NCBI GenBank assembly: GCA_031280965.1
Contig: JAITFZ010000007.1
Coordinates: 1-43,684 of the forward strand
Direction of reading: 5' to 3'
DNA: 43,684 nt
Origin: Oscillospiraceae bacterium
Lineage (GTDB): Bacteria > Bacillota > Clostridia > Oscillospirales > Ruminococcaceae
Of this stretch, positions 1 through 16,533 are shown in pieces. A program made the translations under genes and the position numbers. Position 1 is the stretch's first letter; each line of letters starts with the position of its first letter. Under the pieces are notes generated by a model that was given only the letters and a program-made list of their open reading frames with translations, made no database searches and was not told the DNA's origin.

Positions 1-183
1 TTTAGGAGTACATTTTACCACGTTATTTGACTTTGGGAAATTCAGATTGATGAGATTATACTTATTTAGCGTGAGTTTTAAAGCTTGTTTTTTTATTATT
101 TTTCGAGGATTTTAACACCCAAAAATCCGATATAATAAACATGAGAGTAAAGAAGAAGGATTTTGGGGTTTTACCCGTAAGAT

Positions 184-987
184 ATGTCCTGCGATGAGGG
201 ATTTTCGGGAACCAATCAAAATCGCCCGGCGTTCCAGCGCATGATTGCAGATGTAAAGCAAGGTTATATTAATGCTATATTGATTAAAGACCTTTCGAGG
301 CTCGGCAGAAACTACTTGGAAGTCGGTAATCTTGCGGAAGTCTTTCTGCCGGAACACAACTGCGAGTTAATCTCGCTGGGTGAAAAAATCGACGACATGA
401 TGGTTTTTCGCAACTGGTTCAATGAACAACATAGCAAATCCACCAGTAACAAAGTACGAGCTGTCAAAAAAATATGCGCCGAGAACGGCAAGTATATGGG
501 GGCTTATGCGCCCTACGGCTACATAAAAAACCCGGAGAATCGTCACAAGCTTATCCCCGACCCGAACACCGCGCCGATTGTCTGTAGAATCTTTGAAATG
601 CGGGTTGCCGGAATGGGTTTCAGAGCTGTTGCGGCGATGCTCAACGGCGAAGGATTAGCCTCACCTCGCGAGTATTTTTATCAAAGCCGGGAGCGAAAAA
701 ACCCTTATAAAACCAACCGCTCATGGTGTGCAACAACGGTTCAGGAAATTACCCGAAACGAGGTTTATATCGGGAATCTTGTGCAGGGTAAAACAGGGAC
801 GGTTTCTTTCAAGAATCCAAAGCAAATCGACAAACCCAAGGACGACTGGATTATTGTGCAAAACGCGCATGAACCGTTAATCGAACAAGAGTTATGGGGA
901 AAAGTTCAGATTTTCAACAATAAGAGGTACAATCCCCGCCGCAGAAATGACGGAAAATTCAACTTGTTTGCAGGTTTGCTGTACTGT
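184..987 (+). pseudogene. Large serine recombinase, 5'-truncated and interrupted (5' part)
   Basis: Middle part of a large serine recombinase (resolvase/invertase superfamily, TndX/TnpX type). Visible blocks are the end of the resolvase domain (CDEGFSGTNQNRPAF, then KDLSRLGRNYLEVG), the linker (NKVRAVKKICAENGKY) and the DNA-binding 'recombinase' domain (GFRAVAAMLNGEG, NEVYIGNLVQGK). The first 55-60 residues, including the catalytic serine segment (YxRxS), are absent, and the reading frame upstream of 184 is full of stops, so the gene had lost its 5' end. The frame stays homologous to FAGLLYC at 987 and then runs into the terminal arm of an inserted element, stopping at 1002. The rest of the gene lies at 15645-16289. 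It cannot be catalytically active. Confidence 0.9.
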
Positions 988-1009
988 TCAAACATGAATT
1001 AAGGACAAA
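984..1009. other. Left attachment junction of the inserted element
   Basis: CTGT (984-987) is followed by one T and a 21-base arm (989-1009) that is the exact reverse complement of 15619-15639 at the other element end. Placed outside-in, the two arms around CTGT form a 48-bp symmetric site, the size and shape expected of a serine-integrase attP. The arm contains an in-frame TAA that ends the interrupted recombinase. Assignment of the exact crossover dinucleotide (probably TG at the centre) is an inference. Confidence 0.8.
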
Positions 1010-1014
1010 AACAG

Positions 1015-1056
1015 AAAGGCTCTAAAAACGGCTTAACCAAGCCATTTCGAGCCTTT
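1015..1056. terminator. Terminator-like nested hairpin at element left end
   Basis: AAAGGCTC (1015-1022) pairs with GAGCCTTT (1049-1056), and inside it GGCTT pairs with AAGCC. T-rich tails follow on both strands, so it may work both ways. On the minus strand it follows the last cargo gene (stop at 1080); on the plus strand it would block read-through from outside the element. Confidence 0.7.
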
Positions 1057-1079
1057 TAGCTTTTTGCGGACATGGCGTT

Positions 1080-1283
1080 TCACAGGGGTTTCGTCAAATC
1101 TTTCACCCTGTTTCCGTATGTGTCCATTAAGTAATCGCCTTGGATCGTATACTTCCAATTGCCGTAGGTGTCGATGACACGGTCACCTTCAATCGTATAC
1201 TTCCAGTTTCCGTAGGTGTCGATAATTCTGTTGCCCTCTTTCCTACAGATAACGTTGCCATAAGCGTCTCTGATATCCGCCAT
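1080..1283 (-). CDS. Small YGN-repeat protein
   Basis: A 67-residue protein built almost entirely from a 16-residue repeat: D(A/T)YGN, a hydrophobic/basic strand, then EGN/EGD/QGD and a hydrophobic pair before the next DTYGN. Four units are visible, two of them nearly identical (DTYGNWKYTI, then EGDRVI or QGDYLM), with a matching 48-bp period in the DNA. The pattern suggests a chain of short beta hairpins. An AGGAGGAGAA ribosome binding site precedes the ATG. It is the last gene of the minus-strand cargo run, next to a terminator. I do not recognise a named family and cannot assign a function. There is no signal peptide, membrane segment or cysteine cluster. Confidence 0.72.
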   Translation of the reverse strand: MADIRDAYGNVICRKEGNRIIDTYGNWKYTIEGDRVIDTYGNWKYTIQGDYLMDTYGNRVKDLTKPL

Positions 1284-1330
1284 TTCATTTCTCCTCCTGA
1301 AACTATATGCTGTCTACGATTGTCTGCCAA

Positions 1331-1561
1331 CTACTCCACGTCGGAAATAATTCCCTTGAAATCCTTATGATATCTCATATCGATTTCGCCGACCTTACTT
1401 CCGCTGCTGTCGGTCACATTCCAAACACCGTCTGTCATTTGTTCATTCGCAAAATATTCTGGTGCTTTCATGTATTGGTGGATTTCGAGCTTGCCAGCCC
1501 AACCGTCACGAACATCATACCATGTGTGACCTATCTGTACACGACTCGGTTTTTTACCCAT
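1331..1561 (-). CDS. Hypothetical 76-residue protein
   Basis: A compact acidic and aromatic protein starting MGKKPSRVQIGHTWYDV, with a clear ribosome binding site (AAGAGGAGGACGAAAAG before ATG). It reads as one small mixed alpha/beta or beta domain: VQIGHTWYDVRDGW, a central Tyr/Phe-rich part, then VWNVTDSSGSKVGEID. It has no membrane segment, signal peptide or cysteines. It lies 47 bp upstream of the YGN-repeat gene and about 30 bp downstream of the Cys-rich gene, in the same orientation, so the three are probably co-transcribed. I do not recognise the family and infer no function beyond membership of the cargo operon. Confidence 0.65.
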   Translation of the reverse strand: MGKKPSRVQIGHTWYDVRDGWAGKLEIHQYMKAPEYFANEQMTDGVWNVTDSSGSKVGEIDMRYHKDFKGIISDVE

Positions 1562-1590
1562 CTTTTCGTCCTCCTCTTATTTTTTCGCCG

Positions 1591-1758
1591 TTAACGCCAG
1601 ACCTTGTAATCACCACGTTGGTATGCTTCGTAGTTGGCGCAATTTGTGTAATTATTGCAACAGCAGTAAGATTGCTGCTCACCTTCGGTTTTATAACATT
1701 GCGAATCCGAAGGAGACACTTTGCACCTCTTATATTCATAATCCCAAAATGGACACAT
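1591..1758 (-). CDS. Cys-rich 55-residue protein
   Basis: A short gene starting MCPFWDYEYKRC and ending YQRGDYKVWR. It has seven cysteines: C2, C12, C21, a CCC run at 32-34 and C40, in a Tyr-rich, highly polar sequence. A strong ribosome binding site (AAAGGGGGTG) lies 6-7 bases before the ATG. There is no leader peptide or membrane segment. The cysteine spacing could bind a metal or be cross-linked or modified, but no standard zinc-finger spacing is obvious. It sits between the PspC gene and the 76-residue gene in the same transcription direction. A natural-product precursor role is conceivable because of the nearby ABC transporter but is not shown by the sequence. Confidence 0.68.
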   Translation of the reverse strand: MCPFWDYEYKRCKVSPSDSQCYKTEGEQQSYCCCNNYTNCANYEAYQRGDYKVWR

Positions 1759-1829
1759 GAATTTCACCCCCTTTCCAATTAATCCCGACTACATATTCAG
1801 TAGCAACTTAGCGGTTGACGAGACTGGAT

Positions 1830-2024
1830 TTATTTCATCAGCTTTTCTTCGCTTGGAATAATGATTGCAGCGATGATATAAGCAAGTATTCCGCTACCAC
1901 CTAAAAGAATAAAAAGAATCCACCCCATGCGAATTAGCGAAACATCTATTTCAAGATGTTCGGCTATTCCGTTGCATACTCCAGCCAACATTTTCCCTTT
2001 CTTCTTCTTGCACAATCTCGACAT
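1830..2024 (-). CDS. PspC-domain membrane protein
   Basis: A 64-residue protein consisting of one PspC domain: a basic N-terminus (MSRLCKKKKGKMLAGVCNG), a conserved IAEHLEIDVSLIRMGWI segment, and a C-terminal transmembrane helix (ILFILLGGSGILAYIIAAIIIP). The start was placed at the ATG preceded by GAGGAGGGTAACTTC rather than at an upstream in-frame codon. PspC-family proteins are small membrane proteins linked to envelope stress in other bacteria; in Firmicutes, stand-alone PspC proteins of this length are common and mostly uncharacterised. Here it sits inside the cargo operon between the transglutaminase-like gene and the Cys-rich gene, which suggests an envelope-related role for that operon. 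Confidence 0.85.
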   Translation of the reverse strand: MSRLCKKKKGKMLAGVCNGIAEHLEIDVSLIRMGWILFILLGGSGILAYIIAAIIIPSEEKLMK

Positions 2025-2063
2025 GAAGTTACCCTCCTCGTAGTATAAAATTAGCGCTTTCAT

Positions 2064-3053
2064 TCAATTTATATTTACGACTGCTTTATTTTGAGCTTTG
2101 TTATATCGAAGTTGTATCGTTGAAACTTTATTTTGAAAATGATGCGGTGCGACATTTATAGCATTGGATATTTTATTTAGTATTTCAGTTTCGTTTGCAA
2201 TTCTCATGTCGAACCAAATTGCAAATTTACTTAAACCATGAGATATTTGCGTAGCAACGAACACATCAAGCTCTTTTGCGGTACGGATTATTTGTTTAGT
2301 GTGAAACTCTTTATCACACGCAGGCAGTAATTCAACGTCCCATTCATGGTCATTGCATATTTCTCTGTCAGATAAATTAAAGTAATCGAAGAAATCGGAT
2401 TCATCTAATATACTGTCCCATGTACTGTCTACGTGGTAAAATGCATCGTCAATTTTCACAATATTCCACGCATGATTCTCAGAATTGTCAAACGGTGGCG
2501 TTTTTGCTGAACCACACACCACAACACAAGGAATATTTACGGAGTTGCAAAGATATTTAAATGCTTTTGCATAACCTTCGCACACAGCCAATCTGTTTAA
2601 AAGGGGGCCTACTATGTTATTGTTGGCGTTTTGGTTTGAAAGATTGCGGTTATTATATTTAACAGCTTGGATTAACTTGGTGTAAATGTGTTTTTCTTTC
2701 TCGGAATCAGCTACATTAATTTTGACAATTGATGAAAGCATCTCTTTAACTTTAATGTCGATTCGGAGTTGCATTTCCTTTGAAACGAGAGGACTGTATA
2801 AATAGTTAAGACAAACTTCTTTGTTCTTTCCAAACTGCAATATTTCTGTTTTGCTTGAATCAATAAAAAACAGTTGCGGATTATCGAGAAGGACATATTG
2901 AGTTATCTTAAAAACCGTCTCATTATTGGGATAGCTCGAAACTTTTATTTTATTCTTGCATTCACGTATACCGGCGAGTATTTGATTGTACACATGACGA
3001 TTTGCAATACTTAACTTATGATAATAATACCAGTAATTATTAAATGTATTCAT
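2064..3053 (-). CDS. Transglutaminase-like protein
   Basis: A 329-residue protein with a transglutaminase/cysteine-protease-like core in its middle. The three expected catalytic residues are present in order: Cys in LAVCEGYAKAF, His in SENHAWNIV and Asp in YHVDSTWD. The N-terminal 100 residues are helical and polar, and the C-terminal part (after about residue 250) carries no motif I recognise. No signal peptide or membrane helix is visible, so it probably acts in the cytoplasm unless exported by the neighbouring transporter. The ATG chosen follows AAGGAGGA by nine bases, and a TTG immediately before it is a less likely start. It lies 22 bp downstream of the ABC permease in the same direction. 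The substrate is unknown; proteolysis or amide-bond chemistry are both possible for this fold. Confidence 0.82.
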   Translation of the reverse strand: MNTFNNYWYYYHKLSIANRHVYNQILAGIRECKNKIKVSSYPNNETVFKITQYVLLDNPQLFFIDSSKTEILQFGKNKEVCLNYLYSPLVSKEMQLRIDIKVKEMLSSIVKINVADSEKEKHIYTKLIQAVKYNNRNLSNQNANNNIVGPLLNRLAVCEGYAKAFKYLCNSVNIPCVVVCGSAKTPPFDNSENHAWNIVKIDDAFYHVDSTWDSILDESDFFDYFNLSDREICNDHEWDVELLPACDKEFHTKQIIRTAKELDVFVATQISHGLSKFAIWFDMRIANETEILNKISNAINVAPHHFQNKVSTIQLRYNKAQNKAVVNIN

Positions 3054-3075
3054 CAACTCGCTTCCTCCTTAGGTT

Positions 3076-3897
3076 TTACTTCAGTTCAATGTATTCGAAT
3101 TTTTTTATAGCGAGAACAGTTGAAACGGTCAACGTAATTGTGCCAACGGCTAAGAATATATAATTTATGTCGGTTGGTGTTTGTTTTGCTATATAAGTTA
3201 ATATCCAGTATGTTGATAAATCAAGCTGACCATTTGTTAACACCATTATCATATTGAGCGTCATCGTACCCATTACGACCATGCTTGCATTTATAAATAT
3301 CACAAGATTACGCCGAATAAGTATAGCCAGCATAAAACAAATAGAAGCGAACGAGATGTATAAGAATATTTGTATCGCAAGGAACGCGAGTATTCGTGCT
3401 ATATTTATGTTGTCCGTACCGGGCATCCCGAATATGAAAACTGTTGCAATGCAATATCCAAAAAAATACACACAAATAGTTGCTGCCACAGCACCCATTA
3501 ATACGGCGTACTTAGAAATAAAAACCCGTTTTCTGCTGAAGCCTTTCAAGAAAAAATTGCGGATACCCCCGTATTCAAATTCTTTAATAACATATAAAGA
3601 AATAAAAATCGCAACAAAAACTAACGGGAATAAATTTCTAAATGCAAATGAAATCACTATTCCAGAATCTATGTTTTGCAATTCTGATGTGTCATGAAAT
3701 TGAATCACACCAAAATTATACATTCCATCGGTAATTGTTCGGTCAAGTAATTCTTGCGGTATTTCACCGATAACATCTCCAAGCATTTGTACAACGAGAA
3801 CACCAACAATCGCACTTGCGAGGACGCATATTGCAAAAAATCTAAAAGCAGATGAAATGCGTAATTTATAAATCTCTGATTTGAATAAATTCTTCAT
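3076..3897 (-). CDS. ABC-2 type transporter permease
   Basis: A 273-residue integral membrane protein with about six hydrophobic helices. The first follows MKNLFKSEIYKLRIS, the standard cytoplasmic start of ABC-2/NatB-like permeases. The loop KEFEYGGIRNFFLKGFSRKRVFISKY after the second helix is the typical coupling-helix region. Its ATG overlaps the stop of the ATPase gene by four bases, so the two are translationally coupled and very likely form one transporter, an ABC exporter with a separate membrane subunit. The substrate cannot be read from the sequence; exporters of this class carry peptides, lipids or toxic compounds. Confidence 0.88.
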   Translation of the reverse strand: MKNLFKSEIYKLRISSAFRFFAICVLASAIVGVLVVQMLGDVIGEIPQELLDRTITDGMYNFGVIQFHDTSELQNIDSGIVISFAFRNLFPLVFVAIFISLYVIKEFEYGGIRNFFLKGFSRKRVFISKYAVLMGAVAATICVYFFGYCIATVFIFGMPGTDNINIARILAFLAIQIFLYISFASICFMLAILIRRNLVIFINASMVVMGTMTLNMIMVLTNGQLDLSTYWILTYIAKQTPTDINYIFLAVGTITLTVSTVLAIKKFEYIELK

Positions 3898-4598
3898 TTC
3901 TTGACACCAACCTTTTCTCTGAAGATATCTTCGAGCGTTATGCTTTCATTGAACTCGCTCTTATAGCCTTCGTGTATTAACTGACCGTCTTTCAGTATGC
4001 CATATCTGGTTGCTACTTCTTCAAGCTCGGATAAAATATGACTTGATACAATGAAGGTGATTCCGTAATTTTCGTTGAGATTTTTAATTAAGTCTCTAAA
4101 TTCAAGTACCGATTGAACATCAAGGCCATTTAAGGGTTCATCCAGAACTAATAATTCCGGGATTTTTATTAAGGCCATTGCGATATTTAATTTTTGTTTC
4201 ATTCCAAAGGAGAGGTCATCGGCTTTTTTTGATATTTGGTTAGATAAACCCACTATAGACAATACTTCGGAAATTCTGCTTGTATCAACATTTAACAATT
4301 TGCAATATATAGTCAAGTTTTCTTTTACTGTGTTCCTAAGATACAGAAATGGCTTCTCTATAACAAACCCTGCACGCCAAAGCTCTTTTTTGAAATCCGC
4401 GTTTGAGAATAGTGTTATTCCGCCGCTATCTATACGAATCAATCCTGAAATAGCCCGCAAGAAAGTTGTCTTGCCGGCACCATTCAAGCCAATGAGACCA
4501 TACACATCGCCTTTATTGATTTGTAATGAAATCGAATCCAGAGCTATTTGCTGTTTATAGCTTTTGGATATATTCTGTACCGATAAAATTGCTTCCAT
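3894..4598 (-). CDS. ABC transporter ATP-binding protein
   Basis: A 234-residue ATPase starting MEAILSVQNISKSYKQQIAL. Walker A is GLNGAGKTTFL, the signature motif LSFGMKQKL, Walker B LLVLDEPLNGLD, and the switch histidine is in IVSSHILSEL. This arrangement (GAGKTT, SFGMKQ) is typical of single-domain ATPases paired with ABC-2 permeases such as the following gene. The start was set at the ATG in the TGATG overlap with the upstream DUF5685-like gene, downstream of GGAAGGAG; an earlier in-frame start would extend further into that gene. It supplies the energy for export by the transporter. Confidence 0.93.
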   Translation of the reverse strand: MEAILSVQNISKSYKQQIALDSISLQINKGDVYGLIGLNGAGKTTFLRAISGLIRIDSGGITLFSNADFKKELWRAGFVIEKPFLYLRNTVKENLTIYCKLLNVDTSRISEVLSIVGLSNQISKKADDLSFGMKQKLNIAMALIKIPELLVLDEPLNGLDVQSVLEFRDLIKNLNENYGITFIVSSHILSELEEVATRYGILKDGQLIHEGYKSEFNESITLEDIFREKVGVKK

Positions 4599-5488
4599 CA
4601 GTTTTTCTCCTTCCATGGCAACCATCTATCAAAATCTAACAGAGTTGCCTTTAATTGAACCGTTTTTAATGATATGCCGGCGAGTATTTTTTGTGTGACA
4701 TCAGGAATGAAATTATTAATCAATATTTCGGCGGCGATATAATTAAAGCTGTCATCGTCGTATGTCAAGCAATTTGCAAATATTACATCGATAATATCTA
4801 AAACATTTTGACCATTCGATTCTACATAAGCCTTAAAACACATTCCTTTTACAACAAACGGATTAAATCTTTTCTTTTTCAAGTCGCTTTCGTAGTCATC
4901 AAGCGCATCAATTATGTATACCCATGACGTAATAGCAACTAAAAACTTTTTTTGTTGCTCTGAAATATCCAAATGACTTGATATCGCTAAACACATCATT
5001 TCAGAAAATACTTGTGCCATCGTAAGAGCATCCGTATTTTGCTCTTCATGCTTGAGTATCCGCAAATAACCATCGTTAATTTCCTTTGCCATTGTAGGAA
5101 AATCTTCTGTCGCTCTTTTTATGGTAGGCTTATATATCATTGATACGATCTTGGCAATTAAGGAATCATCGTCATTAATATCGTCATTAATCTTTCCAGC
5201 GAACAGCAAGACATTAAATGCCGCAATCGTTCTCCATACATTGTTGTTTTTTACATTTTTGAAAGAGCCGCAATATATAAAACAAGGAAATTTAAAAGCC
5301 TTTGCACACCTTTTGTCCAAATTCAAAAACATTGCTAATAACGCAATATCGCAACTTAATAATACTTTTGATAGAAAGCCATAATTATGTTGGAGGGCTT
5401 TGCAAGTTGAGCAATAGTATTTTCTATAATTTTTTCTTATATTCCGAAAATTTGAAATACTATTACGGGGATTAAAATACCCAAACAA
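4598..5488 (-). CDS. DUF5685-like protein
   Basis: A protein of 296 residues resembling the DUF5685 family. It opens MFGYFNP, then YRKYYCSTCKALQ with a CxxC pair, later carries acidic clusters (KINDDINDDDS) and the block YIIDALDDYESDLKKKRFNPF near residue 210. These paired Asp motifs in an all-helical protein recall isoprenoid-synthase-like folds, but that likeness is my inference. I chose the TTG at 5488 because family members begin MFGY and because AGGAGG lies eight bases upstream; the earlier ATG and GTG are too close to or inside that ribosome binding site. The stop overlaps the ATPase start by one base, tying it to the transporter. The function of the family is unknown. Confidence 0.75.
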   Translation of the reverse strand: MFGYFNPRNSISNFRNIRKNYRKYYCSTCKALQHNYGFLSKVLLSCDIALLAMFLNLDKRCAKAFKFPCFIYCGSFKNVKNNNVWRTIAAFNVLLFAGKINDDINDDDSLIAKIVSMIYKPTIKRATEDFPTMAKEINDGYLRILKHEEQNTDALTMAQVFSEMMCLAISSHLDISEQQKKFLVAITSWVYIIDALDDYESDLKKKRFNPFVVKGMCFKAYVESNGQNVLDIIDVIFANCLTYDDDSFNYIAAEILINNFIPDVTQKILAGISLKTVQLKATLLDFDRWLPWKEKN

Positions 5489-5523
5489 AATCATCACCTC
5501 CTATTATTCGATATTGCTATTTA

Positions 5524-6195
5524 TCAACCGCAACAACCGATAAGTGCTAAAACTATAAGAACTCCAATTATCCCAATAATAAATTGGATTATCCCCCAAA
5601 CTATAGCGATTATTAAAACAACTATCCACACTATAATCCATACTACAAGAAGTACCAGAGCAATTGCTAAAAGAGAGCCCACTGCTGTAATTAGTGCGGT
5701 TAAAAATGACCATAATATATCAATGGGTATTATTTCATACTCTTCGCTATATCGGTAAGAAATGAAAATAATGCTTGCAATTAAAACTGTGCCAATCACA
5801 ATATGTGGGGAATACATAAATATAGCTCTTAGCACTCCGTCCAAGCTAAAATTAGAGTCCGGGCTGGACGGAGAGTAGTGCCATAGCCTTGGCAACCATA
5901 AATTAGAAATTAACTGCGCACCTAAAAAAGCCGACACATTTGCTACAAACATAACCAAAAACGCCCAAACACCAGTCGTAAAATCTTCTTTGGCAATAAG
6001 GGTGATGGTTGCGATGACTACCGTTAAGCCAATTGCAATCCAATATAACCAACCATACCCCCAAAATAATGCGTTGGGGAGATGCATAATCCCATCGATG
6101 TGTTGGGTAACCGCATATACTACCGCTACGCAAGCAAGTGCTAAAACTGCCCAACCCGGAAGTCGTTTTATAGAATATTCTCTTACTGACATCAT
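5524..6195 (-). CDS. Polytopic membrane protein ending in GCCG
   Basis: A protein of 222-223 residues with about six hydrophobic segments. The last is a long, almost uninterrupted run of Val, Ile, Leu and Trp (from about residue 165) ending in GCCG at the C-terminus. Two adjacent ATG codons are possible starts, preceded by AAGGTGATG. No catalytic motif is visible. It is followed after about 35 bases by the DUF5685-like gene, so the two are probably co-transcribed. The vicinal cysteines at the extreme C-terminus could bind metal, form a disulfide or be lipid-modified, but nothing in the sequence decides this. I do not recognise the family. Confidence 0.72.
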   Translation of the reverse strand: MMSVREYSIKRLPGWAVLALACVAVVYAVTQHIDGIMHLPNALFWGYGWLYWIAIGLTVVIATITLIAKEDFTTGVWAFLVMFVANVSAFLGAQLISNLWLPRLWHYSPSSPDSNFSLDGVLRAIFMYSPHIVIGTVLIASIIFISYRYSEEYEIIPIDILWSFLTALITAVGSLLAIALVLLVVWIIVWIVVLIIAIVWGIIQFIIGIIGVLIVLALIGCCG

Positions 6196-6393
6196 AGTAT
6201 TTCATCACCTTTCTTTTTGTTTTTTCACGATTTATTAATTCGTTTAAACTCTTTGAGAAATTTTCACTTTATAGCCCTTATATCCCCGCAAAACGAAATG
6301 CTTTCACATAAAGTAATATATCGCAATAAAAACCATAACAGTTAAAACGGCGAAAAATGGGATAACAAGTAGTGAATAGCTACGGACAGTAAA

Positions 6394-6744
6394 TTACTCG
6401 TTGTCACCATCCTGTACTGATTTTGCAAATCCATAAATCGTTCCGATAATAGTTCCAGCAATCGAACAAAACATAACAGTTCGAATAAAGTGCCCCATAG
6501 ACCAAATTGTGAATATGCCGTATACGTTATATTCGCACATAAAGCAGTTCAGTCCCGGACAATGGTGCATAATGGTATATTGCTGTTTCCGATATATGTC
6601 CTCAATAATGGTGCCTGACCTTGCGCAGCTACACTGCATTTCGCATAATCCACAAGTAAAACAGTTTAAAAATTCCACAACAAATGCCAGTGCGAACAAG
6701 ACGAGAGCTACAGCAATACCTTCGAGCGGCTCATGGGGGGACAA
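6394..6744 (-). CDS. Cys-rich membrane protein, probably 5'-truncated
   Basis: About 116 residues with one N-terminal and one C-terminal hydrophobic helix and many cysteines between them: FLNCFTCGLCEMQCSC, then HHCPGLNCFMCEY. The spacing resembles a membrane-tethered metal-binding loop. The frame opens only at a TTG with no convincing ribosome binding site, and a TAA lies just upstream. The opposite-strand methylase fragment is also cut at this point, so I think the true 5' end was lost at a recombination junction near 6735-6745. It would be the first surviving gene of the cargo operon, but a 198-bp gap separates it from the next gene. Function unknown. Confidence 0.55.
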   Translation of the reverse strand: MSPHEPLEGIAVALVLFALAFVVEFLNCFTCGLCEMQCSCARSGTIIEDIYRKQQYTIMHHCPGLNCFMCEYNVYGIFTIWSMGHFIRTVMFCSIAGTIIGTIYGFAKSVQDGDNE

Positions 6745-7560
6745 AAGGCTCAGTTATGTGTAACATCGCCGCCATACGGAATCGGCGGCACAAAAACCTA
6801 CGAATCGGGGACGCTTGATGAGTGGTTTGAAACCATGCGCGCCGCTATAAAGAATATCTGCCGCAACGCCGATGTGGTTTGTTATAACATAGCGGATAAA
6901 TTTAATACGGGCGGTCAGTTTATAGAGCCGACATTCGCGTATAGTGTTCAACTGTTCGCCGATAGCGGTTTTCGGCCTTTGTGGGTACGGATTTGGAATA
7001 AACAGAGAAAGGCTCTCAGTTCATCGGCTCCGTTTCACCTTGCCTCGTTGAAGCCGGTGGGAGATTCGGAATATGTCGCGGCGTTTTCGGAAAAAGAACC
7101 GCAGGTAATTGATGATAACGAAGTGGATATCAGCGAACACAGCTACGTCAGCGCTTTTGCTAACCACAGCTACAAGCTGATAAAAAGGCTATCTAAACAA
7201 GAACGGCGGGAATGGGGATACTCGTCCATTTGGAATTTCCCATCAGTTACCGGCACGGGCAACCCCAAAGACCGGCTCGATGAGCGTAATCACCGGGCAA
7301 GGTTTCCTGTGACTTTGCCCTGGCGTTGTATAAAAATGCACTCCGACAAAGGGAATATTGTATTGGAGAGCTTCTGTGGTACGGGGACGACAATCGTCGC
7401 ATCAGAACAAACGGAACGAAAATGTTTCGCCATCGAACGTGAACCGTTGTACTGCGATATATCTGTAGCGCGGTATCATGCTTTCGCACCGGACGCGGAG
7501 ATTTTTCTTTTGCGCGGCGGCGAAACAATGCCGTTTTCGGAAACGAATATATGCGTATAG
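6733..7560 (+). pseudogene. DNA methylase (N4/N6 type), 5'-truncated
   Basis: A phage-type DNA methyltransferase in the beta-class order: target-recognition motif IV first (VTSPPYGIGGTK) and the SAM-binding motif last (VLESFCGTGTTIVASEQTERKC). Both motifs are intact, but the usual 20-30 residue lead-in before TSPPY is missing, and no proper ribosome binding site precedes the ATG at 6733. The missing end coincides with the truncated start of the opposite-strand gene, pointing to a deletion or recombination joint. It might still be translated from the surviving ATG, so activity is uncertain. It probably modified phage DNA against host restriction. Confidence 0.8.
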
Positions 7561-7570
7561 CCTGTTTACG

Positions 7571-7663
7571 GGTCGTGGTTTGGCAGGCGGGGTTTGTTGA
7601 GGCACGGTGAGTCGAGATGTGGCGAGGTGCGACATGGTCTGGCAAGGTAAGGCAGGCATGGCA
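7571..7663 (+). repeat. G-rich irregular GGCA/GGTR repeat tract
   Basis: Between the two methylase genes lies a G-rich, C-poor stretch in which short words of the type GGCAGG, GGCACGG, GGCGAGG and GGCAAGG recur every 5-10 bases, all in the same orientation (for example TGGCAAGGTAAGGCAGG). It has no long open frame and is followed directly by a terminator hairpin. The strong strand asymmetry suggests a transcribed, unstructured leader or a protein-binding tract. I know of no assigned function. Confidence 0.5.
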
Positions 7664-7668
7664 AAATT

Positions 7669-7692
7669 AAAGGAGCGGGATTCCGCTCCTTT
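7669..7692 (+). terminator. Intrinsic terminator
   Basis: A perfect 10-bp stem, AAAGGAGCGG paired with CCGCTCCTTT around the loop GATT, ending in a T run. It sits after the methylase fragment and the G-rich tract and just before the ribosome binding site of the next gene. Confidence 0.8.
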
Positions 7693-7712
7693 TCCATTGG
7701 AGGGGAAAGCAT

Positions 7713-9518
7713 ATGCAGATAGCAAAAAGGTACGAACTTGTACCGCTTATAAAAATAATTCCATATACAAATAATCCGCGCAAGCACAGCAAAGAACAAA
7801 TAGCGCAAATACGGGCGAGTTTCCGTGAATTCGGTGTGCTGTCCCCTTGCTTGGTGGATGAGAATTATAACCTTATCGCGGGGCATGGGCGGTTGGAAGC
7901 GGCACGGCTCGAAGGGTTGACGGAAATAAACTGTGTTATCGCCGAGGGGCTGACCGAAGCACAGAGAAAAGCGTTTGTCATTGCGGATAATAAACTGACC
8001 GAAAATTCTTCATGGGATAACGAATTGCTGACTCTTGAATTCGGCGAACTTAAAGAATTAGGCTTTAATGCAGAATTGACCGGCTTTTCACTTGCGGACA
8101 TAGAGAAGTTATTTGCTGCGGGCGCTGAAGCCCAAGAGGACGATTTCGATGTTGACAAGGAGCTTGATAAACCCACATTCTCAAAGGCTGGCGATATATG
8201 GACGCTCGGCCGGCATCGTGTTATTTGCGGCGACAGCACCAAACCCGAAACTTACGCCGCGCTCATGCAGGGCAAACAGGCAAACCTTATCGTGACCGAT
8301 CCGCCGTATGGAATCGACTATCAGGGTGCGGCGGGGAAAATCAAGAACGATAAATTTGATACCGAGGAACACTTTTATAAATTTCTTTATGATGCGTTTA
8401 TAAATATGGCAGCCGCTCTCGCCAATGACGGGGCGGCTTATTTATTTCACGCTGACTCAAAAGGACTCGTGTTCCGAAAAGCCTTTGACGACGCGGGCTT
8501 TAAACTGTCCGGTAATTGTATATGGGCAAAAAACAGTTTCACTCTTGGCCGCTCTGATTATCAATGGGGGCATGAACCATGTTTGTACGGCTGGAAAAAA
8601 TCAGGCAAGCATAACTGGTATGGCGACAGAAAGCAGTCCACCATTTGGAACTGTGATAAACCGTCCCGCTCGGAAAAGCACCCGACCATGAAACCTATAC
8701 CACTCTTAGCAATCCCGATTCAGAATTCATCACAAACAAACGGTTTTATAACCAATGCCATGATTGCCGACGCCACAATCCTAAACGCTAAAATCGGTAC
8801 GGTCGATGCCGCAAAGATTACCACCGGCACAATCAATGCCGCACGGATTGGAGCTGGTTCTATCACCGCCGACAAAATATCCGCTAACTTCCTTCAAACC
8901 TTGACGGGAAGTCAGTCCATACGGATTACAGGCTCGACTATCAGCTATTTCAGCGGCACAAATATGACCTCGCAAATCAACGCGAACGGCTTTGAATTCA
9001 CCCGCGACAACATCCGAATCGGGCGGCTTGGTACAAATAGTTTCTCTGGTCAACCATCATGGCGCGGGTTGGTTTTCGACCTTGAAAACGCCGGAAACTA
9101 TATGTCTTGGTCGTGGCGGGAAACTGCGACGGCCGGTTCATATACCACAAGATTCACCTATTACCGCAGCCGCCTGCAAAACGGTATGGAGCGTGGCTTT
9201 CATTTCGATGACACGGTGTTTTTCAAGGGTGGACTGTCCGTTGCGTCCGGCACAACCATCATCAATAACAACATTGGCTTTTGGACGTTCGGCTCGACCA
9301 GTTACCTCGCCCGCACAACCACGGGCGGTCGCTCCGGCGTGGCGCTCGGCGGCAACAGCTTAATTCTCGGCAGTCAAGGTCAATGGGTGGATTTTAATTC
9401 TATCCGGGCAATCTGCGCAGCGATTTCAAACAGACGGGTATTCTTACCTGCAAGCTCCGGTGGCTTGTCAAGTTGGTGGGACGTGACTATTCCGTCTTTG
9501 CCGGGGTGGACAACATAA
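7713..9518 (+). CDS. ParB/DNA methylase fused to phage tail protein C-terminus
   Basis: One 601-residue frame made of unrelated pieces. Residues 1-100 are a ParB-like nuclease domain (NPRKHSKEQIAQIRASF, AGHGRLEAARLEG). Residues 150-342 are a DNA adenine methylase with DPPYGIDYQG and HPTMKPIPLLA. Around residue 343 (about position 8742) the methylase stops just before its SAM-binding FxGxG motif, and the frame continues as the C-terminal region of a phage tail/minor structural protein, with repeated short strands (GFITNAMIADATILNAKIG, KITTGTINAARIG) and a receptor-binding-like end. A GGAGGGG site precedes the ATG. The methylase should be inactive for lack of motif I. The simplest origin is an internal deletion that removed the phage packaging, head and tail genes between the two parents. 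Confidence 0.85.
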   Translation: MQIAKRYELVPLIKIIPYTNNPRKHSKEQIAQIRASFREFGVLSPCLVDENYNLIAGHGRLEAARLEGLTEINCVIAEGLTEAQRKAFVIADNKLTENSSWDNELLTLEFGELKELGFNAELTGFSLADIEKLFAAGAEAQEDDFDVDKELDKPTFSKAGDIWTLGRHRVICGDSTKPETYAALMQGKQANLIVTDPPYGIDYQGAAGKIKNDKFDTEEHFYKFLYDAFINMAAALANDGAAYLFHADSKGLVFRKAFDDAGFKLSGNCIWAKNSFTLGRSDYQWGHEPCLYGWKKSGKHNWYGDRKQSTIWNCDKPSRSEKHPTMKPIPLLAIPIQNSSQTNGFITNAMIADATILNAKIGTVDAAKITTGTINAARIGAGSITADKISANFLQTLTGSQSIRITGSTISYFSGTNMTSQINANGFEFTRDNIRIGRLGTNSFSGQPSWRGLVFDLENAGNYMSWSWRETATAGSYTTRFTYYRSRLQNGMERGFHFDDTVFFKGGLSVASGTTIINNNIGFWTFGSTSYLARTTTGGRSGVALGGNSLILGSQGQWVDFNSIRAICAAISNRRVFLPASSGGLSSWWDVTIPSLPGWTT

Positions 9519-9535
9519 AGAGAGGGGAAAACTGC

Positions 9536-9841
9536 ATGGAAGATAAGAAAATCAATCTTCATATTGAAATCCCGGACGGGGAGCGGACGTATATTTTGCC
9601 GCCACATCCAACGGCGTGTGTTCCTGTCAGAGAGGAAACTTCAATGCCCGAAAAACCCACAGTATCCGAAGAGCCGCTTGCCGAATTAGTACGGCAGGCG
9701 GTGGATGAGGTACGCAGCGAGTTAATTGCAGAGTTGGATACACAGGTGAGGCGGTTTCGGTATGACTTGCAAATTGAACTGCAAGCAGAAATATTAAGGG
9801 AAAAGGAGTTTGACAACAATGCTCAAATTAAAAAACCATGA
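9536..9841 (+). CDS. Phage hypothetical protein downstream of tail gene
   Basis: A 101-residue hydrophilic protein starting MEDKKINLHIEIPDGERTY, with a Pro-rich middle and a charged helical C-terminal half (LVRQAVDEVRSELIAELDTQV) likely to form a coiled coil. The ATG at 9536 follows GAGAGGGGAAA; an upstream in-frame GTG would overlap the tail gene and has no site. Its position between tail fibre and lysis genes is typical of small accessory tail or chaperone proteins, but I do not recognise the family. It overlaps the next gene by 23 bases. Confidence 0.65.
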   Translation: MEDKKINLHIEIPDGERTYILPPHPTACVPVREETSMPEKPTVSEEPLAELVRQAVDEVRSELIAELDTQVRRFRYDLQIELQAEILREKEFDNNAQIKKP

Positions 9842-10244
9842 CCTGATCAATGTGGCGGAGTTTCTTGACAAAGTGGAACTGCCGCCGAAAGCAAGCCGCG
9901 CAAGGACAAAACTGAATCGGCTGTTCATCACCAAAATCGGGGAGCTTAACAACGATGAGCGGGAGCTACTCGAAAAGTACGGCAAAAAAGATGAAAGCGG
10001 AAATCTCATCGAAAGCAACGGCAATTTTACGCTGATTGAGGAAACCGCCGTGGAGTTCCACAAAGAAAAAGCGGCGTTGTTCGATGAGGTTACGTCAATC
10101 AACGCAGACGAACTCAAGGACAAATTCGGTACGTTGATTGACGCACTCGAAAACAGCGACATTAAAGTTTCCGGCAAGGATGCCGAGGCTTTGGATTTGC
10201 TGCTTGACGCGCTCGAAGGAGAGGTGGTGGCAAGTGAGGGTTGA
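9819..10244 (+). CDS. Phage hypothetical protein (helical, acidic)
   Basis: A 141-residue, strongly charged protein starting MLKLKNHDLINVAEFLDK. It is probably all-helical, with Lys/Glu-rich repeats and no membrane segment. Its start was placed at the ATG ten bases after AAAAGGAG rather than at a TTG that directly abuts that site. It lies in the tail-to-lysis interval, a usual place for small proteins that vary among phages. It resembles proteins with a DUF1617-like layout in position and composition, but I cannot confirm this. The terminator at 10266 follows it closely. Confidence 0.68.
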   Translation: MLKLKNHDLINVAEFLDKVELPPKASRARTKLNRLFITKIGELNNDERELLEKYGKKDESGNLIESNGNFTLIEETAVEFHKEKAALFDEVTSINADELKDKFGTLIDALENSDIKVSGKDAEALDLLLDALEGEVVASEG

Positions 10245-10265
10245 TAATCAAGGTGGCATAAAACG

Positions 10266-10295
10266 ACACTTTCGTTTCGGCGAAGGTGTTTTTTT
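10266..10295 (+). terminator. Intrinsic terminator before holin
   Basis: ACACTTTCG pairs with CGAAGGTGT (one wobble pair) around a six-base loop, followed by a run of seven Ts. It lies between the acidic phage protein and the holin gene, so lysis gene expression may need read-through or a separate promoter. Confidence 0.72.
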
Positions 10296-10325
10296 ATGCG
10301 AAAAAACAAAAATGGAGGTGCTAAA

Positions 10326-10751
10326 GTGAAAACACTCTGGACTACAACGCAGTTAGGATTTGCCGGGGTAGGCGGTGCGCTTGGCTGGTTTCTCGGTGGT
10401 TTTGACGGTTTGATTCTTACGCTGATTGCTTTTGTGGTCGTTGACTACATCACCGGCATATTGAGGGCAATCATCGAAAAAACGCTGTCAAGCAGAATCG
10501 GCGCGCGGGGTATCGTGAAAAAAGTGGTACTCTTCCTTGTCGTTGGTGTCGCCCATCTTGCGGATGTTTATTTGCTTGAGGACGGCGATGCTTTGCGTAC
10601 CGCGGTTATATTTTTCTACCTTTCCAACGAGGGTTTATCACTGTTGGAAAATGCGGCGGCACTTGGCTTGCCGGTGCCGGAAAGGTTGAAAGCGGCGTTG
10701 GCGCAATTACACGGGCGGGATAAAAAAGACAAGGGGGATGATGAAAAATGA
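10326..10751 (+). CDS. Phage holin (TcdE/holin-4 type)
   Basis: A 141-residue membrane protein of the phage holin 4 / TcdE-UtxA type. Hydrophobic helices cover LGFAGVGGALGWFLGG, LILTLIAFVVVDYITGIL and IVKKVVLFLVVGVAHLADVYL, followed by VIFFYLSNEGLSLLENAAALGLPVP, which is characteristic of the family, and a charged tail (GRDKKDKGDDEK). It forms the membrane pores that release endolysin. The GTG at 10326 is used because GGAGG lies seven bases upstream. The stop overlaps the endolysin start by four bases, giving a coupled lysis cassette. Confidence 0.93.
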   Translation: MKTLWTTTQLGFAGVGGALGWFLGGFDGLILTLIAFVVVDYITGILRAIIEKTLSSRIGARGIVKKVVLFLVVGVAHLADVYLLEDGDALRTAVIFFYLSNEGLSLLENAAALGLPVPERLKAALAQLHGRDKKDKGDDEK

Positions 10752-12205
10752 CACAGGCACAAAAGGATTTTATCGCCAAAGTCGGCGCGTTCGCGGCGGC
10801 GGACATGGCGAAGAGCGGTATCCTCGCCTCGCTCAAAACGGCACAGGCAATTTTGGAGAGCGGCTGGGGAACGTCGGCATTGGCGACACAGGCAAACGCG
10901 CTATTCGGCATCAAGGCTGATTCCCGTTGGAGCGGAAGGGTGTACAGCACCAAAACAAAGGAATGTTATAACGGCGTGAACTTTACTACAGTGGACGCGC
11001 TGTTCCGTGCTTACGATAGCTGGGAGCATTCGCTGTCCAACCACTCGGCTTTCCTTATTGCCGGTGCGCGTTATGCCGCCGTAATCGGTGAACGGGATTA
11101 CAAAAAGGCGTGTGCCGCTATTCATAAAGCGGGCTACGCCACCGACCCCGGTTATACCGACAAACTCATAAAGCTCATTGAACAATACAGGCTGATGGAT
11201 TTTGATACCGTCAGCGAACAGAGCCTGTTTGGCAGAAAGGAACAGAACATGAATATTATCCAAGACATTATACCCAAAGGGCGGCGAAACCGTCCGGGCA
11301 GGGCAAACCCCATGAAGTTTGTCACAATCCATAACACGGGCAACACTTCAAAAGGCGCGGGAGCGCGTAACCACGCAAACTATGTAAAAGGCGATAGTGC
11401 CGCCAATCTTCCTGTTTCATGGCATTACACGATTGACGATAAAGAAATCTACCAACACATCCCCGACAACGAGGACGCTTTCCATGCCGGCGATGGCGGC
11501 GGCAACGGCAACAGGCAGAGTATTGGTTTGGAAATCTGCATGAATTCGGACGGCGACTTACTGAAGGCGACCGACCTTGCCGCACAGCTTACGGCGTCAC
11601 TGTGCCGTAAGCATAACATCCCGATTGAAAATGTCGTGCAGCACCAGCATTGGAGCGGGAAAAACTGTCCGCAGCTTATACGGAGCGGCAGACCTTATGA
11701 TTGGAACACGTTTATTGGTAAAGTCCGGGCGTTTATGGGAACGGGTACAGTCGCACCCGTTCCGACTCCGGCAACGCCGACTATGCCCTCGATGCCAACA
11801 GCCGCTTCGTCTACGAGTTTCAAAGTCGGCGATATTGTGCAGTTCACAGGCGGCGGGGTTTATTTTTCCTCAACCGCCGCAACACCGGCGCATTCACGGG
11901 GGAGATCACGGTGTAAGGTAACGCAAATCGCAAGCGGTCGTAAACAGCCGTTCCATCTCGTCAGCGAGGACAGCGGACGAGTTCATGGTTGGGTAGCGGC
12001 TGGTGATGTTACAGCAATCGGCAGTGGCTCTACTCCTGTGACACCCGCCACACCGCCGAAACCCGCTTTGTTACCCCTTGATGTAATCGCGCGGGAAGTA
12101 ATAAACGGTCGATGGGGTAACGGGCAAGACCGTGTGAATCGCCTAACCGCTGCCGGATATGACGCGAAGGCAGTGCAAGCAAGGGTAAATCAACTTTTGA
12201 AATAA
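10748..12205 (+). CDS. Bifunctional phage endolysin (glucosaminidase + amidase)
   Basis: A 485-residue cell-wall hydrolase with four regions. Residues 1-150 form a FlgJ-type glucosaminidase domain (AQAILESGWGTSALA with the catalytic Glu). Residues 170-335 form an amidase_2 domain with zinc ligands in VTIHNTGN and VVQHQHWSGKNCP. Residues 360-425 form an SH3-like wall-binding module after a Pro/Thr linker. The last 40 residues form a Cpl-7-like binding repeat (EVINGRWGNGQDRVNRL). It cleaves both the glycan and the peptide side of peptidoglycan. No signal peptide is present, so release depends on the holin it overlaps by four bases. This is the best-preserved part of the prophage and could still be functional or repurposed. 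Confidence 0.94.
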   Translation: MTQAQKDFIAKVGAFAAADMAKSGILASLKTAQAILESGWGTSALATQANALFGIKADSRWSGRVYSTKTKECYNGVNFTTVDALFRAYDSWEHSLSNHSAFLIAGARYAAVIGERDYKKACAAIHKAGYATDPGYTDKLIKLIEQYRLMDFDTVSEQSLFGRKEQNMNIIQDIIPKGRRNRPGRANPMKFVTIHNTGNTSKGAGARNHANYVKGDSAANLPVSWHYTIDDKEIYQHIPDNEDAFHAGDGGGNGNRQSIGLEICMNSDGDLLKATDLAAQLTASLCRKHNIPIENVVQHQHWSGKNCPQLIRSGRPYDWNTFIGKVRAFMGTGTVAPVPTPATPTMPSMPTAASSTSFKVGDIVQFTGGGVYFSSTAATPAHSRGRSRCKVTQIASGRKQPFHLVSEDSGRVHGWVAAGDVTAIGSGSTPVTPATPPKPALLPLDVIAREVINGRWGNGQDRVNRLTAAGYDAKAVQARVNQLLK

Positions 12206-12445
12206 GCCACGGAAAAGATAACCAAACACAAAGAACAATGCTGCAATGAAACGATGCAACAACGCTTCGACGCTTCAAAGCAAACTTAAAAACACAGGCA
12301 GGAGAGGTAAATCAGCAACATAATAATTGCTTTTTGATATTTATGAATTTTGAGTGCAAGTGACAAGCCCTATAACTCATATACATTTAAAAAGCTAATT
12401 ATTACAAGGCTGTTTTCCTCTCCGCCTTGCTTTGGAGGAGCGAAT

Positions 12446-14326
<1,881 letters not shown>

Positions 14327-14327
<1 letters not shown>

Positions 14328-14363
14328 CGGCGGTGACTGTAAAAAGTTACCGCCGTTATTTTT
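14327..14363 (+). terminator. Intrinsic terminator after recombinase
   Basis: ACGGCGGTGACT (14327-14338) pairs with AGTTACCGCCGT (14345-14356) with one G-T wobble, followed by TATTTTTA. The stem begins at the recombinase stop codon. Confidence 0.85.
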
Positions 14364-14370
14364 ATGCCCT

Positions 14371-14517
14371 CTACTTCGCCAAAGTCCAATCCGTGGCGAA
14401 GTAGAGAAACCGCCGTCAAAGCCTGTTGTCATGCAGCTTTGAGGGCGGTTTTATGGTTTGTTTTCTACTTCGCCATTGCGGGTGTATGGGTTTGGCGATG
14501 TAGCGATGGCGAAGCAG
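14371..14517. repeat. Iteron-like cluster of TGGCGAAGTAG
   Basis: The 11-mer TGGCGAAGTAG occurs exactly three times and with one mismatch twice in 147 bp: 14371-14381 (inverted), 14394-14404, 14465-14475 (inverted), 14493-14503 (TGGCGATGTAG) and 14507-14517 (TGGCGAAGCAG). The first two form an 11-bp inverted repeat. Between 14407 and 14452 a second long hairpin is present (AAACCGCC with GGCGGTTT). The cluster abuts the stop of the RepA-type gene, which fits a replication origin or operator, but a terminator-like role is also possible. Confidence 0.68.
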
Positions 14518-15477
14518 TTATGGCAGCATCCACACCCGCTTGTTTCCGTCTCGTCCGGAGCGCACGTTTAACTCCTTCTTCACCCGCTCGACCGTCCGGG
14601 GGCTTATGCCCGCTTTTTCGCAAGCCTTGTATATTTCTGTACCTTCTTGAGGGGCATCTTTTAACATGGCATATATGATTTCCGTTGCTTTTGCCCGCTT
14701 GCCGGAATCATCGGGAATCTCCTCATATTCAAAATCGCCGTCGTATTCGCCTAAGTACAGAATAGGAGCCTTATCCTCTATGCGGAACGCAATCGGCGCG
14801 CCGGGGCGTGATACGCTGCTTTTTATATGCGAAATAATCCTTGTTTCCGGGTCACTCTCCGAAGCGCTTATACGCAAGACGCTTCTTGCCGTGGCGGTTA
14901 TATCCACAGAGCCGAAAACGCGGTGAAGTTCCTTCGCACCCTGCGCTTTGTTTTGGTGGGCAATAATTATCACGGCACAATCGTTTCTCGCGGCGATGCC
15001 GCCTAAGTTGGATAAAAGCCTGCGGATGTCCGTAATTCTGCACATATCAGCGTTCTTTCCCATATAGCTCTGCAGGGGATCAAAAATTGCCAAGCGCGCG
15101 CCTGTTTCCTGTATGTGTTGTTCAATTATATCGCAGTCCTCGTCAATGTTCAGGTCTGCCGCTTCGATAGATATGATTTTGTTTGAATCCGCACTCGCGT
15201 TCATGCAACGGGGCAGCAACGTGTCCGCCAAATCGTCCTCTTGGCTCTGAAATAAAACGCTGCCGATAATTGGTTCCGCATCGGACAGCGGCATAGGGCG
15301 GCCGGTGGTAAGGCGTGCGGCAATATCAAGAGCGATGGATGTTTTGCCTAAACCACTATCGCCGACAAGGATTGTTATTTTCCCAAACGGGATGCGGTCT
15401 TGCCAAAGCCACGTTATTTCCTTCGGCTGTACTGTGTTCCATATTATTCTTTTATGCTCTTTAGTTTTTGGATTCAT
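14518..15477 (-). CDS. RepA-type AAA ATPase (replicative helicase-like)
   Basis: A 319-residue P-loop ATPase of the RecA/RepA (AAA_25) class. It carries Walker A ILVGDSGLGKTSIALDIA, Walker B RLAIFDPLQSYMG, and the sensor stretch AVIIIAHQNKAQGAKELHR followed by FGSVDITATARSVLRI. A C-terminal helix-turn-helix-like region (GTEIYKACEKAGISPRTVERVKKEL) could bind DNA. Such proteins act in plasmid and phage replication or primase loading. It lies at the right end of the element on the opposite strand to the integrase, with the iteron-like cluster directly at its 3' end, so it may act on those repeats. It begins MNPKTKEHKRIIWN, preceded by a weak GAGG. Confidence 0.88.
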   Translation of the reverse strand: MNPKTKEHKRIIWNTVQPKEITWLWQDRIPFGKITILVGDSGLGKTSIALDIAARLTTGRPMPLSDAEPIIGSVLFQSQEDDLADTLLPRCMNASADSNKIISIEAADLNIDEDCDIIEQHIQETGARLAIFDPLQSYMGKNADMCRITDIRRLLSNLGGIAARNDCAVIIIAHQNKAQGAKELHRVFGSVDITATARSVLRISASESDPETRIISHIKSSVSRPGAPIAFRIEDKAPILYLGEYDGDFEYEEIPDDSGKRAKATEIIYAMLKDAPQEGTEIYKACEKAGISPRTVERVKKELNVRSGRDGNKRVWMLP

Positions 15478-15618
15478 GTATCGTTAAACCTCGTTTTTGT
15501 TTGAGTAGTGGAAATCTTATGTATTTATTTTAGCACATGGCTGTCGAAAAGGCAATGGTGGATTTACCGCGATTCCGTCAAACCGTTGGTATTACTGTGT
15601 TTTTTATGCTTTTGCGTA

Positions 15619-15644
15619 TTTGTCCTTAATTCATGTTTGTCTGT
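15619..15644. other. Right attachment junction of the inserted element
   Basis: A 21-base arm (15619-15639), the exact reverse complement of 989-1009, is followed by one T and CTGT (15641-15644), which also occurs at 984-987. Beyond CTGT the interrupted recombinase resumes with GCAGATTGCGG (Ala-Asp-Cys-Gly). The arm supplies an ATG at 15633 in frame with the recombinase remnant. Confidence 0.8.
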
Positions 15645-16289
15645 GCAGATTGCGGATTTAAACTGCGCGGGAGTGTACAGCACAACAAACGGTCTAAAAC
15701 TAAACGTATCTATTACATGTGCGGAACTTACGCCCACGGCGGCAGTACAGCCTGCTCTATTCACAGTATAAATGAATCCGTCTTGATTAAACTTGTTTCA
15801 GAACAGATTCGCGCCCATGCGGCTTTGACTGAGCTAAATGAGGAAAAGGTAATTGAAGCCCTCATAATCGCGCAAAGCAATGAAACTCAGGTATACCATG
15901 CTGTTTATAAGAATGAACTCGAAGCCCGCAGGAAAGAAATCGCGAAACTCGACCTCCTCATCGAAAGCCTGTATGCGGACAAAGTAAATGGGATTGTTTC
16001 CGTTGAAATGTTTAAAAGGCAGGTTATGAAGCACGAACAGGAAAGAGCTTCACGTCAAAAAGCTGTAACCGCGCTGGAGCAGAAAATAGCGAGCATAAAA
16101 CTAAACACAGACGATGCTTCAAATCGATTGAGGTTAGTCAGGGACTGCGCATCGTTTGAAACGCTTACTCCCGAGATATTGTTCACGCTCATCGACAAAA
16201 TCATCATCAGCGAAACGCAGATTATAGATGATAAGCGCGTGTGCGATGTAAAAATCGTTTATAATTACTCGGGTGAAAAACAGAATTAA
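15633..16289 (+). pseudogene. Large serine recombinase (3' part of the split gene)
   Basis: The zinc ribbon and coiled-coil C-terminus of the recombinase begun at 184. It starts ADCGFKLRGS at 15645, continues YYMCGTYAHGG, then a long coiled coil (EVIEALIIAQSN onward) and the usual ending IDKIIISETQIIDDKRVCDV. Joined at CTGT to 987 the frame is continuous, so this half was separated by the insertion. An ATG inside the element arm (15633) could drive translation of a 218-residue fragment with only the zinc-ribbon/coiled-coil region. That region is non-catalytic; in active integrases it controls att-site pairing. Confidence 0.9.
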
Positions 16290-16341: not shown

Positions 16342-16533
16342 CGGAGCTTTTACACCGAATGGTACCCGAACAGAGGATATTTTTTTGATATTACCAACTC
16401 GACCGCCTACGACCAATATTATAGGCACGGCGGTCCTGTTTATGAAAACATAAGCATGATTGTAGATGAGATTTTCAACGTTTACGCGCACAGATTCGGC
16501 TTCAGAAATCCGTACTTAGACGTACACTGTTAA
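16342..16533 (+). pseudogene. Orphan C-terminal gene fragment
   Basis: About 63 codons open after an in-frame TAG at 16339 and end at a TAA that overlaps the stop of the opposite-strand recombinase. The translation is protein-like and aromatic: FYTEWYPNRGYFFDITNS, then YDQYYRHGGPVYENISMIVDE and FRNPYLDVHC. No start codon or ribosome binding site is visible, so it looks like the 3' end of a gene whose front was lost to mobile-element insertion. I do not recognise the family. Confidence 0.5.

Follow-up and report, generated by a model that had tools for sequence, protein, structure and literature searches.

The window analysed here, the whole stretch of DNA under study, is one complete contig of 43,684 nucleotides (JAITFZ010000007.1 of assembly GCA_031280965.1, forward strand) from an Oscillospiraceae bacterium whose genome of 2.0 Mb is distributed over 36 contigs and gave 22 recombinase matches. 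Near its left end a gene for a serine recombinase is interrupted by an inserted element (988-15640, forward strand), which from its two junctions, its phage genes and its kinship to the phage contig G149 appears to be a decayed prophage with cargo genes. The middle part of the interrupted gene, with a Resolvase domain (from profile position 39) and a Recombinase domain, is found at 184-987 and the C-terminal part, with zinc ribbon and DUF4368, at 15645-16289 (Pfam matches on 15633-16289, recombinase profile position 317 onward), both on the forward strand. On the same strand the element carries a large serine integrase of 541 amino acids (12702-14327). We consider it probable that the prophage was integrated by this recombinase of its own at the zinc-ribbon codon of the other recombinase, and that members of its lineage often target motif codons of recombinase genes.

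The left junction consists of a CTGT copy at 984-987 followed by the arm CAAACATGAATTAAGGACAAA at 989-1009, and the right junction of the arm TTTGTCCTTAATTCATGTTTG at 15619-15639 followed by the second CTGT copy at 15641-15644, all given on the forward strand. The left arm is the exact reverse complement of the right one over all 21 bases. These arms and the shared CTGT had been pointed out in an earlier reading (the sequence-only reading), whose coordinates proved correct. When the exact inverted 14-mers of the window are listed, no other run that links two distant sites is as long as the arms, the remaining ones being shorter or hairpins, and by our own estimate, which was not computed with a tool, about 2e-4 inverted matches of 21 bases are expected by chance in 43.7 kb. 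Joining the element ends around CTGT (15619-15644 and 988-1009) gives, as had been claimed, a symmetric phage attachment site (attP) of 48 bp, which is palindromic at 21 of 24 positions and has the dinucleotide TG at positions 24-25. The crossover would take place at this TG (985-986 on the left, 15642-15643 on the right); CTGT is common to both element ends with TG in its centre. The element would presumably be excised as a circle.

Joining the flanks, i.e., position 987 to position 15645, gives GKFNLFAGLLYCADCGFKLRGSVQ, which is read in a single frame and encodes LLYCADCGF. The interrupted gene is of the DUF4368 type, and its break falls on the first zinc-ribbon Cys codon. Two intact homologues from the same genus (L029 and L030), which match 265 residues from the N-terminal portion of the target with 78% and 75% identity, read through the insertion site as GLLYCSDCGFKLRG without any gap and bear out the restoration of the recombinase that the sequence-only reading had proposed. 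The left and right attachment sites (attL and attR) divide the target gene and joining its flanks restores the frame, which is the split-gene arrangement of a site-specific serine-integrase prophage. These observations support an insertion of the serine-integrase type with an attP of 48 bp and a TG crossover inside coding sequence. Repeated recombinase genes that were mis-joined during assembly might imitate such a locus, and the fragmentation of the assembly, its many recombinase copies and the fact that the window is a whole contig lend some weight to this idea. A mis-join, however, would not yield a near-palindrome of 48 bp with exact arms and the same core at both junctions, and the same geometry is seen in separate assemblies, so that an assembly artefact seems hardly credible to us. 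The window also contains an intact DUF4368 recombinase gene (16530-18206) whose 3′ end faces that of the broken target; its zinc ribbon reads KCADCGY with TGC as the first Cys codon.

The enzyme behind the insertion is likely the element's own TnpX/TndX-like DUF4368 recombinase. All four domains of the TndX/TnpX type (Resolvase, Recombinase, Zn_ribbon_recom and DUF4368) are present in the frame 12642-14327; among relatives of solved structure TnpX is the best match, and the identity to TndX is about 36%. The catalytic-domain residues Y12, R14, L15, S16, R87 and R90 are invariant in a nine-row integrase alignment (A1), and S16, the Ser of the YxRLS motif, is the residue which we take to be the catalytic serine. 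The integrase is presumably active as an enzyme. Its nearest relative (L009) is 84% identical and lies on a contig that stops 3 bases past the integrase gene.

For a survey of insertion sites among the relatives of this integrase we used 138 sources of integrase loci, namely at least 80 from genome contigs (scan with alignment A1), 50 out of 63 from viral contigs, seven from whole genomes and the window; the other 13 viral loci matched the integrase partially or weakly and were excluded, and a 3′ flank of 150 bases or more is available in 130 of the 138 sources. In searches over many genomes the top candidates per genome were scored. Scanning the genome contigs with the single window integrase gave five pattern matches and no relative. 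Each locus was then inspected 3′ of the integrase for a broken recombinase gene. Among the loci listed such a gene was found in 11 of the 20 loci with at least 45% identity (the window, L160, L161, L020, L163, L021, L081, L083, L084, L164 and L167) and in five of the 110 loci below 45% (L193, L197, L198, L179 and L183); Fisher's exact P is 1.8e-7, which is a guide only as the rows are related and the close set was read by eye more closely than the distant one. L160 and L161 share 93% identity over 7.4 kb and 85% over a target stretch of 119 bp and were therefore counted as one lineage. With the two taken as one event, recombinase genes are the target in 10 of the 13 resolved cases of the close set (again among the loci listed). 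As recombinase genes make up at most about 1.8% of the source genome (a rough upper bound), the binomial P is about 1e-15, assuming independence and random sites.

Two loci, L160 and L081, were classed by eye, L160 also by a sensitive scan, and L179 (E 6e-4) and L183 (E 0.047) were assigned by the sensitive scan together with reading of the NSHPAI and NSHEAI codons. C-terminal recombinase stretches on the opposite strand (L120, L132, L201), the match at L126 (E 0.45) and almost complete recombinases beside the integrase (L166, L200, L205, L206, G074:C3) were not counted as breaks of the attachment-site type. The sample includes near-identical rows (L182/L115 and L169/L099). In L020 (G047:C31) the recombinase fragment begins 75 bases past the integrase; this locus is among the 11, had no arm in the 48-bp frame and was omitted from the table of half-sites. 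The near-complete second recombinase of L205 and L206 stands in tandem straight after the integrase, with an N-terminal recombinase piece beyond it on the opposite strand. One genome (G352; L060 3045-4139, L063/L061) carries two integrase copies with about 83% identical DNA, each next to a recombinase cut at its DEG codons, and an extra C-terminal recombinase piece which is 97% identical to one of the two DEG-cut targets.

The positions of the breaks were compared by means of 16 half-sites which were anchored on the arm by eye and aligned without gaps, the crossover being placed at positions 24-25 as set by the window attP. In the window, L160 and L161 the crossover is the TG of the first zinc-ribbon Cys codon, followed by TGCNGAYTGYGG, and the right half-sites of all three read TGTGCNGAYTGYGG. 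L160 and L161 are viral contigs with integrases 65% identical to that of the window, and their cut recombinase differs from the window's target. A search for other elements with this integrase, which the sequence-only reading had recommended, has thus led to elements that cut at the same TG in a different recombinase. The idea of an integrase directed at zinc-ribbon coding sequence gains from this; hopping between elements and a gain from silencing, which had been attached to it, did not emerge from the data. In a second type (L081, L083, L084, L164 and L167) the crossover is the GA of DEG-type codons in the catalytic domain, and it is the same GA in five of five cases. In L021 it is a GA within KDI codons in antisense orientation and in L163 a GA within VENSHEAI codons. 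The arms of L081, L164, L167, L193, the scar left of the window's target and contig C16 of the same genome (see below) deviate from TTTGTCCTTAA at several places.

For L163 (contig G812) both ends were recovered, with exact arms of 16 bases and an attP of 48 bp that is palindromic at 19 of 24 positions. Residues 51-275 and 274-514 of its target lie on either side of the insertion and the flanks join in frame as VRKPKDEWIIVENSHEAIVTKEIF. When the reverse complement of the arm was searched inside 12 integrase loci only the window's own left arm was found, the partner of the L163 arm being located outside its locus. The contig of L163 (L242, G812) contains further recombinase pieces at 70-552, 903-1643, 9576-10682 and 16056-16190, one of which ends at residue 52, at the DEG codons.

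In a tree of 50 hand-chosen integrase proteins out of 134 the zinc-ribbon cases fall into a six-row group (100/99) with L009, L162 and L082, which is nested in an 11-row group (100/99) with L163, L021, L020, L165 and L080. The five DEG cases are found in an eight-row group (100/99) together with L024, L166 and L168. The survey and the half-sites support the view that recombinase genes are favoured in related subclades as well, where other conserved codons serve as targets (DEG, KDI and NSHEAI). One could argue that the integrase has specificity for one site only, a DNA motif which merely happens to occur in zinc-ribbon genes, and that it does not matter whether the target is a recombinase. Phages residing in comK or groEL are examples of such specificity, and with TGTGCNGAYTGYGG common to all three right half-sites a plain DNA motif would suffice. 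Coincidence of a single motif does not explain that the sister subclades with other motifs are also located in recombinase genes, and we regard one-site specificity as quite unlikely.

We propose instead that the decayed prophage would have been integrated by its own DUF4368 large serine recombinase through a 2-bp TG crossover between the 48-bp attP and a bacterial attachment site (attB) in the coding sequence of another recombinase, at the codon for the first zinc-ribbon Cys. Members of the lineage would often use as attB the codons of conserved motifs in serine recombinase genes, with the motif varying by subclade (zinc-ribbon CADCG, catalytic-domain DEG, KDI or NSHEAI). Such motif codons are conserved, present in many copies per genome and dispensable to the cell. 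Residing inside another element might bring some benefit of its own.

An integrase which recognizes zinc-ribbon codons might also cut its own gene. The zinc-ribbon CxxC codons of the window integrase (approximately 13671-13685, forward strand) encode CADCD in place of CADCG. Taking the residue behind the CxxC by a simple pattern 150-300 residues from the C-terminus, we find Gly in 122 of 134 integrases; the window, L160, L161 and L009 have Asp or Asn, and Gly is lost in 8 of the 130 others (Fisher 4e-5, with related rows). The altered codon coincides with the GG that is kept in the right halves of the three zinc-ribbon attB sites. The changed codon may spare the zinc-ribbon users self-insertion, which we offer as a lead and not as proof.

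Several findings weigh against the proposed preference for recombinase codons. The uninterrupted junction, a search for which had been suggested by the sequence-only reading, was not found, the 27-base empty joint being absent at up to three mismatches from 149 genomes. We also found no circular joint; the exact arm is absent from the viral contigs, and at up to three mismatches the window arm is not present in G149, the record of the 84% relative. Just two zinc-ribbon lineages are known, the window and L160 with L161. L162 and L082, which belong to the same six-row group of the tree and have no target assigned, keep the Gly. The central dinucleotides of L080 (AC), L174 (TT) and L193 (CA) fit less well, and the anchoring of the half-sites was done by eye. 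Of the 20 close loci, six (L171, L082, L024, L023, L085 and L092) lie outside the set with resolved targets. Related elements at unrelated sites, which had been named as an observation that would refute the idea, do occur in part: three close relatives with 46-51% identity are inserted in genes for a P-type ATPase (L080), a Pox_D5/primase-helicase-like protein (L165) and a YjbR protein (L174). In addition the accessible passages of PMC10083194 and PMC13137831 describe the DUF4368 integrases as a multi-targeting clade. The three exceptions, this description and the 22 recombinase matches in a 2.0-Mb genome would all fit ordinary multi-targeting, in which the DUF4368 clade has a relaxed specificity and the insertions that survive are those into recombinase genes, because these genes are numerous and dispensable. 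Survival, however, does not predict one shared TG in the window and L160/L161 or one GA in the five DEG loci. Ten of the 13 resolved independent targets are recombinase genes, which by the rough upper bound given above occupy about 1.8% of this genome. Ordinary multi-targeting is therefore in our view an unlikely explanation. The stronger proposal that the lineage is specialized in hunting serine recombinase genes, with one conserved motif per subclade and its own gene protected by a codon change, is possible, and we put it forward with some doubt; if it applies, the recombinase gene pool would be both habitat and battlefield of these elements, in a way comparable to conserved active-site codons in the case of inteins and homing introns.

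The target gene of the window has a second break. A half-site of the DEG-codon type at 170-194 (forward strand), with the crossover GA at 193-194, marks its 5′ break as the scar of what appears to be a second insertion, and the ~50 codons with which the target should start are missing upstream of it. When anchored on the arm, this scar can be aligned with the half-sites of DEG type in L081, L083, L084, L164 and L167. On contig C16 an N-terminal recombinase piece reaches the same DEG codons and adjoins a 48-bp stretch sharing 98% identity with the 3′ flank of a DEG-group integrase on contig C35 of the same genome. The target gene was probably hit twice, and C16 presumably holds the missing N-terminal piece. 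Owing to the second break, excision of the prophage would still leave the target recombinase gene incomplete, and this weakens the suggestion of the sequence-only reading that competitors are silenced, as far as a live competitor at the zinc-ribbon site of the window is concerned. That the integrase evolved to inactivate the recombinases of rival elements would agree with the split zinc ribbon and with the numerous broken recombinases in the genomes examined. As the target had also lost its start through the other break and nothing indicates that its element is a rival or active, we think such a role improbable.

The remaining genes of the element are mostly of phage type. A phage-type DNA methyltransferase (6733-7560) is 65% identical to its counterpart in G149. 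It is followed by a frame (7713-9518) in which a ParB/methyltransferase part runs into the C-terminus of a tail protein (PHROG matches: methyltransferase 4-346, tail protein 346-538); this fused frame likely marks the place where a large deletion removed the phage structural block. Holin and endolysin are encoded at 10296-12205 according to domain and PHROG matches, these genes all being on the forward strand. Ten open reading frames of the element were scanned, other small ones lying outside the scan; among their PHROG matches there are no terminase, portal or capsid families, and a complete set of phage structural and packaging genes is not present in these ten. The viral contig G149 (48.8 kb) carries an 84% identical integrase, and the methyltransferases, the holin and a small protein of the element have relatives there too. 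On the reverse strand at 2064-5497 there are genes for a transglutaminase-like protein, an ABC permease (ABC-2), an ABC ATPase and a DUF5685 protein (Pfam, NCBIfam). The NCBIfam model nearest to the ATPase is lantibiotic protection, the match being under the curated cut-off, and these genes are possibly for peptide export or immunity. Most simply the element would be a prophage that lost its structural block and carries transporter and transglutaminase genes as cargo.

Between the integrase and the right end there is a gene for an AAA_25 ATPase (14518-15477, reverse strand, Pfam). It was considered as a part of the attachment system and rejected because in L160 the junction follows directly after the integrase. 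In L161 the corresponding gap (11879-15183) holds two TIR-domain proteins, one of them with an additional phosphoesterase domain, and in L160 it holds no gene. This gap may serve to accommodate cargo, possibly defence genes. Outside the element the list of open reading frames gives a probable surface protein of 1339 residues with many Cys-containing repeats (38451-42470).

If the proposed preference holds, target choice in at least one DUF4368 lineage would obey a rule visible in the sequence itself, namely a preference for conserved codons in other recombinase genes, and this would help to account for split recombinase genes in Clostridia genomes. It would also be a natural case of an enzyme recognizing the genes of its kin while sparing its own, and the self-avoidance could be tested directly.

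Among the open-licence papers listed, covered as titles, abstract openings and passages, we recognized no integrase that targets recombinase coding sequences. The multi-targeting clade of large serine recombinases of Durrant et al. (PMC10083194) shares DUF4368 and TndX-like kinship with the window integrase. The passages seen of that paper exclude this clade from the enrichment of target-gene Pfam families and name no recombinase genes as targets, and a pattern of recombinase targets could therefore have been missed there. Elements nested in conserved genes of integrative and conjugative elements (ICEs) are described in the available parts of several reports: integrative and mobilizable elements (IMEs) and ICEs (PMC5704250), Tn1806 in snf2 (PMC12942858) and Tn6104-Tn6106 in Tn6103 (PMC3158075). 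Like the prophage of the window these are serine-integrase elements inside genes of other mobile elements, but the targets given there are SNF2, Maff2, VirD4-type and methylase genes or oriT, with no recombinase gene among them. The res-site hunters of the Tn5053 family (PMC7765201) likewise seek the recombination system of other elements and are an analogue only, as in the passages seen they enter res beside the resolvase gene by means of TniABQ and the resolvase of the target, whereas in the window a serine integrase cuts coding sequence. We regard the nested elements and the res-site hunters as precedents, and in these sources no element targets the coding codons of a recombinase. TnpX of Tn4451 and TndX of Tn5397 have the same domain make-up as the window integrase. 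For TnpX-type elements a 2-bp core has been reported in the passages available (PMC3158075, PMC5704250), and for Tn4451 and its relatives a low target specificity (PMC5704250). In contrast to the low specificity of the Tn4451 group the lineage of the window recurs at the same recombinase codon.

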